Source: an uncultured Geobacteraceae bacterium (GTDB lineage Bacteria; Desulfobacterota; Desulfuromonadia; Geobacterales; CAIOGM01). From it: DNA of 42,492 nucleotides. A model generated the notes under the pieces. The model was given only the letters and a program-made list of their open reading frames with translations. It was not told the DNA's origin and searched no databases. Where the stretch lies: positions 1-42,492 of the forward strand of contig CAIUUR010000460.1 in the NCBI GenBank assembly GCA_903902345.1. Reading direction: 5' to 3'. Positions 25,931 through 30,396 of the stretch are shown piece by piece (within the stretch, counting starts at the first letter, position 1; the number at the start of each line of letters is the position of its first letter). The position numbers and the translations under genes are program-made.

Positions 25931-27286
25931 ATGAATACGAAGATTCTTCTGGGTGAAGAGCAGATCCCTAAACAGTGGTATAACATCATCCCCGATATGC
26001 CTGGGCCGCTGCACCCGGTTATTAATCCCCGGACCCTAAAGCCGGCTACGCCGGAAGATATGTTGGCCATCTTCCCCCTGGCGATTCTTCAGCAGGAGAC
26101 CTCCACCGACCGGTGGATCGACATTCCCCCTGAGGTTCGGGAGATCTACCGCCTCTGGCGGCCATCCCCCCTCTACCGGGCTCGCCGACTGGAGCTGGCT
26201 CTGCAGACCCCCGCCAAGATCTACTACAAATACGAGGGGGTATCACCGGCCGGCTCCCACAAGCCCAACTCCGCCGTTCCCCAGGCCTGGTACAACAAGC
26301 AGGCGGGGATCCGTCGCCTGGCCACGGAGACCGGCGCCGGACAATGGGGGAGCTCTCTGGCCTTGGCGTGCAGCATGTTCGGTTTGGAGTGCACGATCTA
26401 CATGGTCAAGGTCTCTTGCCAGCAGAAGCCGTACCGCAGGAGCATGATGCAGCTCTGGGGCGCCCAGGTCATTCCCTCCCCCTCGGAGTTTACCAACTCC
26501 GGCCGCTCCATCCTGGCCCACGATCCTGACTGTCAGGGTAGTTTGGGGATTGCCATCTCCGAGGCGGTGGAGGATGCCGCGACCCACGCCGACACCAACT
26601 ATGCCCTGGGGAGCGTGCTGAACCATGTCTGCCTCCATCAGACGGTCATCGGCCTGGAGGCCAAGGAGCAGATGAAGATAGCCGGCGACTATCCCGACGT
26701 GGTCATCGCCTGCTGTGGCGGTGGTTCCAATTTTGCAGGGCTGGCCTTTCCTTTCATCGCCGATCGCGCCGCCGGCAAGCAAGTTCGTGCTTTGGCCGTG
26801 GAGCCGGCCTCCTGTCCGACCCTGACCAAGGGGGTCTATGCTTTCGACTACGGCGACACCGCCCAGGTTGCCCCCATAGCCATGATGTATACTCTTGGTC
26901 ACGATTTCATGCCGCCGGGAATTCATGCCGGAGGGCTTCGCTATCACGGCGAGTCGCCGCTGGTTTCCCAGCTACATCATGCCGGCCAGATTGAGGCCAA
27001 GTCGTACAAGCAGAACGCCTGTTTCGAAGGGGCAATCCTCTTCTCCCGGAGCGAGGGGATTGTTCCGGCGCCGGAATCATCCCACGCCGTTCGTGCCGCC
27101 ATCGACGAAGCGATGCTGGCCAAGGAGGAGGGGAAAGAGAGGACTATTCTCTTCGGTCTTTCCGGCCACGGTCAGTTGGATATGGGGGCATATGACGCCT
27201 ATCTCTCCGGAAACCTGGAGGATTACGAATATCCTGAGGCCAAGATCCGCGAGGCGCTGGAGCGGTTGCCGAAAATAAATTTGTAG
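25931..27286 (+). CDS. trpB2: TrpB2-type tryptophan synthase beta chain
   Basis: This 451-residue PLP enzyme belongs to the TrpB2 group, longer than the canonical TrpB (396 aa at 28070) and different in its N-terminus ([20 protein letters not shown]). The PLP-binding Lys lies in [17 protein letters not shown]; the catalytic-loop region reads [17 protein letters not shown]; the phosphate-binding loop is [15 protein letters not shown]. TrpB2 proteins combine indole and serine to tryptophan and can act without TrpA, or serve for indole salvage. AAAGGA precedes ATG 25931. Its presence beside a normal TrpB and the apparent absence of trpA is notable. Confidence 0.93.
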
Positions 27287-27304: not shown

Positions 27305-27916
27305 ATGATTCGAGTCAAGATCTGCGGAATTACGTCCAAAGAGGATGCCCTCATGGCGGCGGAGGGAGGGGCTGACGCACTGGGTTTCGTATTCTACGAG
27401 AAATCACCCCGTTATGTCTCCCCCCAGAAGGCTGCGGCCATTATCAGGGAGCTTCCCCCCTTTATCCAGAGCGTCGGTCTCTTCGTTGATGAAGAGGCGG
27501 ATCAGGTAAACTGGACCGCCGGGTTTTGTGGCCTCGACCTGGTGCAGTTGCACGGCGAGGAAGATCCGGAGTACTGTCTCGGCATCAACCGGCGAATCAT
27601 CAAGGCGTTCAGGGTGAAGGATGCCGCCACTACGGCAGGAGTCAGCCGCTATCAGGCGGCCGGGTATCTTCTGGATGCCTGGTCTCCCCTGGCGCCGGGG
27701 GGGACCGGCCAGAGCTTTGATTGGGAGTTGGCACGCAGCGTCGTCTCCACCGGCAGGCTGATCCTCGCCGGTGGGCTCACCCCCGAAAATGTCGGCGACG
27801 CGGTTCGCGTCGTGGCCCCCTATGGTCTGGATGTCTCCAGCGGGGTGGAATCTACACCGGGCCGCAAGGACGCCGATAAAGTCAGGGAGTTCATCCGGCG
27901 CGCCAAAGGCGCCTGA
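27305..27916 (+). CDS. trpF: phosphoribosylanthranilate isomerase
   Basis: TrpF (203 aa) isomerises phosphoribosylanthranilate to CdRP, the substrate of TrpC. The (beta/alpha)8 fold shows MIRVKICGITSKEDALMAAE with the catalytic Cys7, ADALGFVFYEKSPRYVSP, VGLFVDEEADQV, LDLVQLHGEEDPEYC, the catalytic Asp in YLLDAWSP, LAGGLTPENVGDAV and LDVSSGVESTPGRKD. The sequence is complete and of normal length. It lies 18 bases behind trpB2 and is followed by the triplicated trpB start region. Confidence 0.96.
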   Translation: MIRVKICGITSKEDALMAAEGGADALGFVFYEKSPRYVSPQKAAAIIRELPPFIQSVGLFVDEEADQVNWTAGFCGLDLVQLHGEEDPEYCLGINRRIIKAFRVKDAATTAGVSRYQAAGYLLDAWSPLAPGGTGQSFDWELARSVVSTGRLILAGGLTPENVGDAVRVVAPYGLDVSSGVESTPGRKDADKVREFIRRAKGA

Positions 27917-28037: not shown

Positions 28038-28086
28038 CGTTACCGATACATTTCAACCCTGGAGTTCATATGCGCTTTCCCGATAA
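28021..28086 (+). CDS. upstream short ORF 2 of the trpB leader (21 codons)
   Basis: An identical second copy of the 21-codon frame starts at ATG 28021 and ends at TAA 28084-28086, 17 bases inside trpB. Stop and restart in this overlap could couple its translation to trpB. Confidence 0.4.
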
Positions 28087-29260
28087 GAATGGTCACTTTG
28101 GCGAGTTTGGCGGCAGGTATGTGCCTGAGACGCTCATGCCCGCCCTTCTGGAGTTGGAGCGGGCTTACACTCACTTCAGCCATGATCGTGAATTCAGAGA
28201 GGAGTTCGACTATTACCTCCGCCAGTACGTGGGACGTCCCAATCCCCTCTACTACGCCGAAAAACTGACTCGCAAGCTTGGTGGGGCAAAGATCTACCTG
28301 AAGCGTGAAGATCTGAATCACACCGGCGCCCACAAGATCAACAACACCATCGGTCAGGGGCTTCTTGCCAAGAGGATGGGTAAACAACGGGTCATTGCCG
28401 AGACCGGAGCAGGGCAGCATGGAGTGGCGACAGCTACCATTGCTGCTCTCATGGGGATGGAGTGCGAAGTCTTCATGGGTGAAGAGGATATTCACCGGCA
28501 GTCACTCAACGTTTTCCGGATGAAGCTTCTCGGCGCCACGGTTACCCCGGTAAACTCCGGCACTGCAACCCTCAAGGACGCCATGAACGAGGCGATGCGT
28601 AACTGGGTCACTCACGTTGCTTCTACCTTCTATGTAATCGGAACCGTGGCAGGGCCGCACCCGTATCCCCTGATGGTGCGTGACTTCCAGTCGGTTATCG
28701 GCAAGGAAGTCCGGGTGCAGCACCGCAAGGCCGAAGGGAGGCTCCCCCACATTCTTGTGGCGGCAGTGGGTGGCGGTAGCAATGCCCTGGGGCTCTTTCA
28801 TCCCTTTCTCAAGGATAAAGAGGTTAAACTGGTGGGGGTCGAGGCCGCCGGCCACGGCATTCATTCGGGCAAGCACGCCGCGCCCCTCTGCGCGGGGAGC
28901 GTGGGGGTCCTCCATGGGAACAAGACCTACCTGCTTCAGGATCAGTTTGGCCAGATCTCTCATGCTCACTCCATCTCCGCCGGTCTCGACTATCCCGGAG
29001 TTGGTCCCGAACATGCCTGGCTCAAGGATACCGGACGGGCAGAGTACGTCTCCGTCACCGATGATGAGGCTCTGGCTGCGTTTACCACTCTGACCAGGGA
29101 GGAGGGGATCCTGCCGGCCCTGGAGTCGGCCCATGCCATCGCCCACGTCATCAGATTGGCCCCGACCCTGTCTGCCGACACGACCATTGTCGTCTGTCTT
29201 TCGGGGCGGGGAGATAAAGATATTCACACTGTGGCTGAGATAATGGGAGTAAAATTGTAA
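28070..29260 (+). CDS. trpB: tryptophan synthase beta chain
   Basis: Canonical TrpB (396 aa) condenses indole with serine. Features: [20 protein letters not shown] at the N-terminus, the PLP Lys in [20 protein letters not shown], the catalytic Glu in [13 protein letters not shown], the phosphate loop [27 protein letters not shown], and [16 protein letters not shown]. The segment that usually contacts TrpA is present, so it should be able to bind an alpha subunit, yet no trpA follows. The start ATG 28070 lies in the third copy of the 49-bp repeat. After the stop comes about 85 bases before the next promoter. Confidence 0.97.
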
Positions 29261-29345
29261 AGTTGAGGGCTTGGTTCAAAATTTTCACATGAACGCTTGA
29301 CAGTTTTCGTGTTGTACTGTAGTGTAGTGTGCTCTTTCACATTCA

Positions 29346-29351
29346 TATAAT
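29346..29351 (+). promoter_or_regulatory. -10 element ahead of the structured leader
   Basis: TATAAT (29346-29351) matches the consensus. Transcription would begin near 29358, exactly where the folded leader starts. The -35 position (TGTAGT) is poor. A second candidate upstream, TTGACA (29297-29302) with TAGTGT 17 bases later, is an alternative. Confidence 0.5.
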
Positions 29352-29359
29352 AGTAAAGG

Positions 29360-29428
29360 AGGTTGAGCCGGAAACGATCCGTCCAAACCGTGGGTCCCTG
29401 AGGACCACTCAGCGTTGCTGAGCAACCT
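29360..29428 (+). ncRNA. structured 5' leader RNA, candidate cis-regulatory element
   Basis: A closing stem AGGTTG (29360-29365) / CAACCT (29423-29428) encloses three hairpins: CGGA-TCCG (29369-29381), GTGGGTCC-GGACCAC with one bulged G (29390-29408) and CTCAGC-GCTGAG with a GTT loop (29408-29422). This makes a compact multi-branch junction directly before the lipoprotein start at 29442. The start codon has no Shine-Dalgarno sequence close to it, and the only AGGAGG (29357-29362) lies in or beside the closing stem. Unpaired AAAC and CCAAACC segments between stems would be candidate conserved loops. I could not match it to a known riboswitch class. Confidence 0.5.
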
Positions 29429-29441
29429 GCGAAAAAAAACT

Positions 29442-30086
29442 ATGAAAAATTCCGCCATTCTTGTCGTCGCCTGTATGCTGATCCTGATGTCGTGTGACCA
29501 GACGCACGTTCAGCAGGCACAGATTCCCCTTAAGGCGGCGGAATCAGAGCTGGACAAAGAGATCCGGCAGGTGATGGAGAAGGGGATCAACCTGGAAGAA
29601 CGTAAATGTCAGGTCCCCGCCATTGCCGAAGTCTTTGCCCGACGGGCTGAACCGAAACGGGCCCGGTGGCTGGCTGCGCTTTGTTACTTCAAGACGCTTG
29701 GCACCTCCCTGATGCCCATTGATCTGGCCGAGATAGCCCTGGCCGAGACCGGAGCCTACGGATTATCCGCTGATCTGGTCTCCAAGTCCGGTGCGCTGGG
29801 GGTCTGGCAGTTAATGCCGCGGCGCGCCAAGAGCCATGGGTATACACCGGAAGAGATGGAAAATGATGAGAAGTGCGCTGAGGCGGCTGTCCGGGAACTG
29901 ATGAACAAGCTGAGCATGACCCATGGCAACCTGGATAAGGCGAAGAAATATTACTGTGGTGTCGGTCCCCAGGCGAACGCCTATGAGGTGAAGCGTCGGG
30001 AATTTCGCCGGGAGATCCTTGAAGGGCTCAAGCTGCAGAATGGCGAACCCAAGAAGAGTACAGGAACTCTTTTGAGCCGATCCTGA
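29442..30086 (+). CDS. lytic transglycosylase-like lipoprotein
   Basis: The 214-residue product starts with a lipoprotein signal (MKNSAILVVACMLILMSC, lipobox LMSC with Cys18), so the mature protein should be lipid-anchored. The SLT-like domain shows DLAEIALAETGAYGLSADLVS (ALAETG carries the probable catalytic Glu) and KSGALGVWQLMPRRAKSHGY, the typical 'GALGxWQLMP' motif. A helical tail with YYCGVGPQANAYEVKR follows. Such enzymes cut the glycan strands of peptidoglycan. The start at ATG 29442 is fixed by the signal peptide, although no ribosome site lies in front of it, only a run of A. A strong hairpin terminator follows. Confidence 0.85.
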   Translation: MKNSAILVVACMLILMSCDQTHVQQAQIPLKAAESELDKEIRQVMEKGINLEERKCQVPAIAEVFARRAEPKRARWLAALCYFKTLGTSLMPIDLAEIALAETGAYGLSADLVSKSGALGVWQLMPRRAKSHGYTPEEMENDEKCAEAAVRELMNKLSMTHGNLDKAKKYYCGVGPQANAYEVKRREFRREILEGLKLQNGEPKKSTGTLLSRS

Positions 30087-30104: not shown

Positions 30105-30152
30105 CAAACAAAAGAGCGGATGACCCAGAAGGGTTATCCGCTCTTTTGTTTG
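30105..30152. terminator. bidirectional intrinsic terminator
   Basis: CAAACAAAAGAGCGGATGAC (from 30105) pairs with GTTATCCGCTCTTTTGTTTG (to 30152), giving a GC-rich core flanked by A- and T-rich arms, which can end transcripts from both sides. Confidence 0.9.
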
Positions 30153-30309: not shown

Positions 30310-30396
30310 TGGTGCCGAAGGCGAGACTCGAACTCGCACGAGCAAAAACCCGCCACCCCCTCAAGATGGTGTGTCTACCAATTCCACCACTTCGGC
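30310..30396 (-). tRNA. tRNA-Leu (anticodon GAG)
   Basis: Read on the minus strand this is an 87-base class II tRNA. The acceptor stem GCCGAAG pairs with CTTCGGC, discriminator A is followed by an encoded CCA. The D arm contains GGAATTGGTAGACAC, the anticodon stem CCATC/GGTGG carries loop TTGAGGG with anticodon GAG, a long variable arm follows, and the T arm holds GTTCGAGTC. GAG reads CUC and CUU. It is the last gene of the gap-pgk-tpiA-secG run and has its own terminator. Confidence 0.95.

Follow-up and report, generated by a model that had tools for sequence, protein, structure and literature searches.

The SLT gene and its leader

We analysed contig CAIUUR010000460.1 of an uncultured Geobacteraceae bacterium (assembly GCA_903902345.1; 42,492 nucleotides (nt), forward strand; hereafter the window), in which a gene for an SLT-domain lipoprotein resembling lytic transglycosylases is preceded by a compact RNA leader at 29355-29444. 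We conclude that this element is a diverged member of a leader family that is real, specific to this gene and not listed in Rfam; in that family a Shine-Dalgarno (SD) sequence lies about 85 nt upstream of the AUG. An earlier prediction made from the letters of the window (the original prediction) had placed a multi-branched, ligand- or stress-responsive RNA structure at this site. The features of the locus are as follows, P and H denoting stems and hairpins and aSD the anti-SD.

29297-29325, + strand: likely promoter, TTGACA (29297-29302), 17-nt spacer and TAGTGT (29320-29325), by eye
29346-29351, + strand: TATAAT, the -10 box of the original prediction, by eye; not seen at the corresponding place in the relatives read
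29355-29444, + strand: leader element, diverged copy of the leader family
29355-29362, + strand: distal SD, AAAGGAGG, near-perfect; aSD duplex of -12.4 kcal/mol for 29354-29364
29360-29365, + strand: 5' strand of stem P1, AGGUUG, predicted fold; overlaps the SD
29367-29372, + strand: GCCGGA, 5' strand of the family stem P2, from alignments A1-A3 and pair counts; partner diverged in the window
29369-29381, + strand: hairpin H1, predicted window fold
29393-29406, + strand: hairpin H2, GGUCC/GGACC, predicted fold; common to the closest subfamilies
29408-29413, + strand: CUCAGC, aligned with UCCGGC (3' strand of P2 in relatives); in the window it pairs downstream within H3
29408-29422, + strand: hairpin H3, CUCAGC-GUU-GCUGAG, competing locally with P2; in the window it pairs with a mean probability of 0.98
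29423-29428, + strand: 3' strand of P1, CAACCU, predicted fold
29429-29441, + strand: A-rich stretch without an SD, from P1 to the start codon, from sequence and aSD energy
29442-30086, + strand: SLT-domain (lytic transglycosylase-like) lipoprotein gene downstream of the leader (Pfam PF01464, 4.8e-6, 26.6 bits, cut-off 21.3)

The segment 29346-29445 was predicted to fold with a minimum free energy of -29.1 kcal/mol (z -2.80), a stability equalled in 1 of 200 shuffles; together with the family found upstream of the same gene (see below), this bears out the proposal of a structured leader ahead of the lipoprotein gene. In the predicted fold P1 (29360-29365/29423-29428) encloses three hairpins (29369-29381, 29393-29406 and 29408-29422), as originally drawn, and the ATG (29442-29444) does lie 13 nt past the stem, 80 nt downstream of the end of AAAGGAG. 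No SD was found ahead of this ATG, again as claimed, the aSD energy being +0.1 over the last 20 nt compared with -12.4 for 29354-29364, and AGGAGG (29357-29362) overlaps the 5' strand of the closing stem.

The original prediction had also taken TATAAT as a -10 box, with transcription beginning at the first stem base. This is doubtful: a consensus promoter scan of 29200-29460 returned 0 promoter-like sites, with neither TATAAT nor TTGACA-N17-TAGTGT passing, and a better candidate was recognised upstream by eye. Because the same-genus locus L006 has TTGACA-N17-TAGGGT at the corresponding place (by eye), we consider TTGACA-N17-TAGTGT the better of the two.

That the element falls outside known RNA classes was confirmed with Rfam 15: neither the window nor any of 15 homologous loci gave a match at the gathering score. 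When 29250-29500 was searched permissively, nothing credible was returned (PreQ1 at 17.9 bits, gathering 39; a long non-coding RNA at 12.3 bits, gathering 45), and four further loci yielded two matches, both below gathering. The letters GAAAC and CUGAGGA, noticed by eye and which we take to be those of the hammerhead motif, were rejected as such because the stems do not form.

The leader belongs to a single gene

The SLT protein of the window, for which there was no NCBIfam match, was matched in 94 of 97 genomes, its own included; G001, from the window's genus, gave no match. The upstream DNA of the 94 loci was collected and read by eye, and a pattern search revealed a common plan in 78 of them: AAAGGAG, a few nt, a GCCGGA-like segment, a variable stretch, a GGCAAAGC-like motif, a linker and ATG. 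The window and most others of the remaining 16 show this plan with more changes (by eye), and the leader is missing from two same-genus loci, L006 (G002) and L007 (G003), although the SLT gene is kept there.

A covariance model, R1, was built from 35 leaders, the window among them. Against the window's genome its sole hit at E<=10 was the window itself (41.8 bits, E 5.3e-5), a score that is not independent since the window was in the training set, and which ranks 89th among the 93 R1 hits at E<1e-3. Over 141 genomes of the order, 102 matched at E<=1 and 93 at E<1e-3 (35 leaders being training), and none had two hits at E<1e-3; genus g13, which has a different P2, was missed by R1. Over 195 genomes of the class, 67 matched at E<=0.1, all of them within the same order. 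Two weak adjacent R1 matches at G109:C111:26969-27186 (E 0.009 and 0.026) perhaps represent a tandem or expanded leader.

An exact pattern was then searched in a collection of 84,980 species. The 58 stretches that it matched come from records labelled as Geobacter or related genera, or from broader bins (Desulfuromonadales, Delta- or Proteobacteria). All 58 have an ATG-initiated reading frame 87-103 nt past the first SD base, and in 57 the window SLT protein is matched at most 1000 nt downstream; the last, truncated at a contig end, matches a relative of that protein. Since all the pattern hits precede the SLT gene, the leader belongs, as far as the searches reach, to one gene and is not a regulon-wide class. 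The window shows the family traits of a distal SD, no proximal SD and an SLT gene downstream, and fails in one, the covarying stem P2. No published report of the leader was found in the literature searched; the unnamed or low-ranking candidates of PMC11109978, available as excerpts, could include it.

One helix covaries across the family

The helices were evaluated on alignment A3. Its rows were admitted on the basis of SD, ATG and protein signs, together with seven taken from the first set (L039, L046, L078, L085, L088, L089 and L094, of which five stayed). The pool of 108 rows fell to 60 after removal of those at least 90% alike and then to 51 leaders, to which the values below refer unless stated otherwise; the rows left out were L047, whose element is unclear, and 8 that belong to one genus type and differ in P2, and L020 was re-cut. 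P2 (GCCGGA/UCCGGC) is paired in 97.4% of cells, with changes on both sides in four of its six pairs (6 cells). None of 500 shuffles reached any of five measures, the best slid version paired 48.0% of cells, and RNAalifold yielded exactly P2, which is the sole helix common to nearly all the leaders. A further compensatory change, GCCAGAG/CUCUGGC, occurs in L074, outside A3. Unbiased column covariation added little: the P2 columns were among mostly complementary pairs, but the top scores came from non-pairing columns. The covariation proposed originally as a check was therefore found, and no known non-regulatory RNA was hit in Rfam; the covarying helix is, however, P2 and not the closing stem, and the window has lost it, GCCGGA against CUCAGC giving C.A and A.C mismatches and a mean P2 pair probability of 0.0.

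The closed stem with three hairpins thus holds for the predicted fold of the window and not for the family. P1 pairs 79.5% of cells in the 11 closest leaders. In 58 leaders, however, its 5' segment pairs no better with its own 3' segment than with that of another leader, since 200 of 200 swaps equalled or exceeded the true pairing; when the SD was excluded, 230 of 300 shuffles equalled it in the 51 leaders. H2 was likewise rejected in the wide alignment, where it pairs 49.5% of cells, not above chance; a partner slid by one column pairs 72.3%, so the subfamilies differ in the register of this helix. The mean z was -0.9, and -0.7 over 18 leaders of another type, so that stability alone would have missed the family.

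In one genus (A4 leaders, e.g. L067, L082 and L051) P2 is different, GGGCUU/AAAGCC. By eye, an outer helix (variants of UGAUUGGC/GCCAUUCA) seems to follow the SD directly in these leaders; it would leave about 10-14 nt to the AUG. ACCGAC lies inside their loop, as compared with the linker elsewhere.

H3 competes with P2 for the 3' strand of the latter and is paired in 87.7% of cells. As a universal helix it was rejected, its covariation being at chance (46-76 of 500 shuffles reach the measures, and likewise on A1). Two helices that share a strand, with mean predicted probabilities of 0.50 (P2) and 0.37 (H3), could represent the alternative states of a small-molecule riboswitch, an explanation that we hold to be highly improbable in view of the chance-level covariation of H3, the lack of an Rfam match at threshold and the interior of P2, which differs between subfamilies and so leaves no conserved aptamer core. 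The single target gene (58 of 58 pattern hits) lowers this claim further, although single-gene riboswitches are conceivable. With one target gene, one strong copy per genome and a differing interior, the ligand-responsive role of the original prediction is not supported.

In the window, CUCAGC has an alternative upstream partner, GUUGAG, just 3' of the SD. Within 29362-29422 it can thus pair with GUUGAG (upstream) or with GCUGAG (downstream), and UCCGGC in the relatives with GCCGGA or GCCG(A). The window may retain a choice among three strands in changed letters, this being a single sequence in which the match is possibly due to chance.

The letters of P2 and of the motif CAAAGCYGA are conserved beyond pairing needs. 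This, and the single target gene, would be expected of an operator or autoregulatory site, at which a trans-acting protein or small RNA binds P2 and the CAAAGCCGA/ACCGAC linker and blocks passage of the 30S subunit, somewhat as in thrS. We consider such a site decidedly unlikely, since some subfamilies (L033, L043 and L049) have lost the letters of the linker and retained its length.

A distal SD and nearly fixed distances outside P2

SD-independent start calls were obtained for 59 of the 94 loci. AAGGAG or AAGGGGG was present at -60 to -125 in 55 of these, versus 1 and 5 of the 59 in the next two intervals upstream, and a proximal aSD energy of -4 or better was reached in only 2. The four loci without a distal SD are, by eye, L006 and L007 (leader missing), L098 (wrong start call) and L026, which is unclear. 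Among 102 rows selected for the distal SD (the window counted twice), a proximal SD was found in one, the doubtful L047; in the leaderless L006 and L007 the proximal region resembles an SD weakly, at -3.5 and -3.0, compared with a median of +0.75 over the 102 rows. The distal SD could also serve a hidden leader peptide, a possibility that was rejected: no ATG lies 4-11 nt past the SD in any of the 102 rows (ATG, GTG or TTG in 16), and the spacer lengths of 78 leaders are spread over the three frames (30, 28 and 20), with stops in frames 0, 1 and 2 of 42, 26 and 40 leaders and 16 leaders without a stop in any frame. There is no conserved small open reading frame (ORF) in the leader, single ones remaining conceivable.

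The distances outside P2 are nearly fixed. The SD lies 5.8 ± 0.7 nt (3-7) from P2 and P2 lies 30.1 ± 1.4 nt (26-34) from the AUG, the total outside P2 being 35.8 ± 1.6 nt (32-40), and the interior of P2 is variable, with 37.2 ± 5.2 nt (32-52). The linker has a G content of 9%, and its last 18 nt of 5%. Sequestration of the SD, as implied by its original placement in the closing stem, is not supported across the family: its mean unpaired probability is 0.35, versus 0.33 in partly shuffled leaders.

A far SD need not direct initiation, and the main rival explanation, in our judgement unlikely on balance, is a stabiliser of the STAB-SD type, in which a 30S subunit, stationed on the far SD, would stop RNase J from degrading the mRNA 5' to 3', the AUG is used without an SD and P2 is a helper hairpin. 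The window genome does match TIGR00649, which we take to be of RNase J type (620.6 bits, cut-off 400), but 13 of 14 control genomes match it too (9 over the cut-off), so its presence says little. By eye, many relatives have A-rich bases just upstream of the SD, a candidate processing site. On the other side, a stabiliser predicts a usual ribosome-binding site (RBS) at the AUG, which is missing here, though SD-less initiation is possible, and it does not need the nearly fixed 30 nt between P2 and AUG. Were it the correct explanation, a Gram-negative group would possess an element of the STAB-SD kind.

The leader might also be inherited and unregulated, its structure tuning a constant enzyme output and sensing nothing, with the copy in the window decaying. 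The single gene, the two same-genus genomes that keep the gene without the leader, and the broken P2 of the window are in line with this; yet genomes from several families of the order have retained the SD, P2 and the geometry, which suggests selection, and the fold of the window is still strong (z -2.80). We regard an unregulated leader as improbable.

Upstream promoter, terminator-like hairpin and neighbouring genes

Further upstream, in the 250 nt ahead of the SD, 52 of 79 non-redundant regions contain a stem of at least 8 pairs (4% of 395 shuffles) and 51 a TTGAC-type promoter (1% of 395). In 35 of the 79 the promoter, of sigma-70 type, stands 20-35 nt ahead of the hairpin (e.g. L029, L031, L008 and L020). 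In 25 of the 52, just 22-25 nt separate the end of the hairpin from the SD; this distance is too short for another usual promoter, so in those 25 the hairpin should lie within the leader transcript. A GCGUUU-like hairpin tail, TTTTGGCGTTT and variants, occurs in 61 of 101 rows. The tail is not frequent elsewhere, C/T plus TTTGGCGTTT having 28 matches in 8 genomes compared with 50 for the reversed control, and 5 of those 28 sit just upstream of the SLT leader. The hairpin has the look of an intrinsic terminator and might attenuate the SLT gene; the window has no such upstream hairpin.

As for the neighbourhood of the SLT gene in the window, two TrpB-type genes (25931-27286 and 28070-29260) were found just upstream, with matches to TrpB-like NF009057 (740.1 bits) and TrpB TIGR00263 (648.1 bits). 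Between them lies a TrpF-looking gene (27305-27916, by eye). A strong inverted repeat 3' of the SLT gene (30105-30152) is probably its terminator (by eye), and a tRNA-Leu (gag) lies next to the SLT gene, at 30310-30396 on the - strand.

A proposed split, distal ribosome-binding site

Taken together, the distal SD, P2 and their spacing point to an inherited, gene-specific 5' leader acting as a split, distal RBS, or standby site, a reading that we favour tentatively and to which we give somewhat less than an even chance. A 30S subunit would dock on the far SD, and folded P2 would shorten the path, so that the subunit could pass to the open AUG region by standby or bridged initiation. P2 folding would then set the amount of lipoprotein, and two states of the leader are conceivable, since the 3' strand of P2 can also pair locally (H3). 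In the predicted structure of the window, P1 with H1, H2 and H3 stands in for the lost P2: this fold would also bring the SD near the start region, 13 nt past P1, with part of the SD paired.

Several observations weigh against a split RBS. The main weakness is that P2 alone leaves about 36 nt between SD and AUG (32-40), far above the 5 and 11 nt of phage T4 (see below), and P1, the second helix that would close the gap, is not supported family-wide. It should be considered as well that the mean probability of P2 is only 0.50 in the predicted ensembles (0.37 for H3), that the start region is hardly more open (0.76) than in partly shuffled leaders (0.75), that the fixed outer lengths may partly reflect sequence conservation, and that the window itself is without a proper P2. 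The narrower alignment A1 revealed no covariation of P2, with 0 of 6 pairs changed on both sides, because its rows were chosen partly by the 3' strand of P2. Finally, of 500 20-mers drawn at random from the window 46.6% reached an aSD energy of -4, which makes any one SD call weak and the measure useful only for the family set; 23 of the 32 long ORFs of the window reach -4 at the longest-ORF start.

A bolder version, which seems to us unlikely, extends the split RBS to a two-stage gate kept through much of the order: the terminator-like hairpin would meter transcription, the 30S subunit would dock about 85 nt upstream and cross a bistable P2/H3 element to a start codon lacking its own SD, and envelope or growth conditions would set the lipoprotein dose. 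If a split RBS is indeed at work, the leader would amount to post-transcriptional control of cell-wall cleavage in Geobacter-type bacteria and would provide, over much of a bacterial order, a natural test bed for standby and split-site initiation models, for which the literature examples that we encountered come from phage T4 and a few E. coli genes.

Comparison with known systems

A tested precedent is offered by genes 25 and 38 of phage T4, in which, according to excerpts of PMC3014915, SD-AUG distances of 27 and 22 nt are reduced to 11 and 5 by intervening structure. There, as in the leader, SD and AUG are too far apart, and in the leader too an RNA structure between them would shorten the distance; the leader differs in that P2 alone would reduce about 85 nt to about 36, the comparison being one of layout. 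The thrS gene of E. coli has a tRNA-like operator. Its RBS is interrupted by a hairpin essential for autoregulation, as stated in the title of a reference in PMC7708055. A hairpin-split RBS is also what we propose for the leader, which precedes a different gene and has no known repressor.

The AUG of cry3A has its own RBS. The STAB-SD of this gene, according to passages of PMC4113751, resembles an SD and lies far ahead of the AUG without directing initiation; the leader shares the far-upstream position, but those passages describe no covarying hairpin at a fixed distance. In E. coli tisB the 30S subunit loads about 100 nt upstream and a 5' structure is required, the excerpted account listing a single-stranded standby site, a proposed pseudoknot and a sequestered RBS (PMC7708055). 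Far-upstream loading, proposed for our leader, and a 5' structure are thus common to both, whereas the leader has a strong upstream SD and no proximal RBS. The YjbJ motif (WRC-39-1) is another RNA that lies ahead of a lytic transglycosylase gene; as far as the excerpts of PMC11109978 describe it, it is restricted to Streptococcus, is followed after about 30 nt by a usual SD and AUG, and consists of two hairpins with a terminator-like feature, in contrast to the leader, which is found in Geobacter-type bacteria and is without a usual SD at the AUG.
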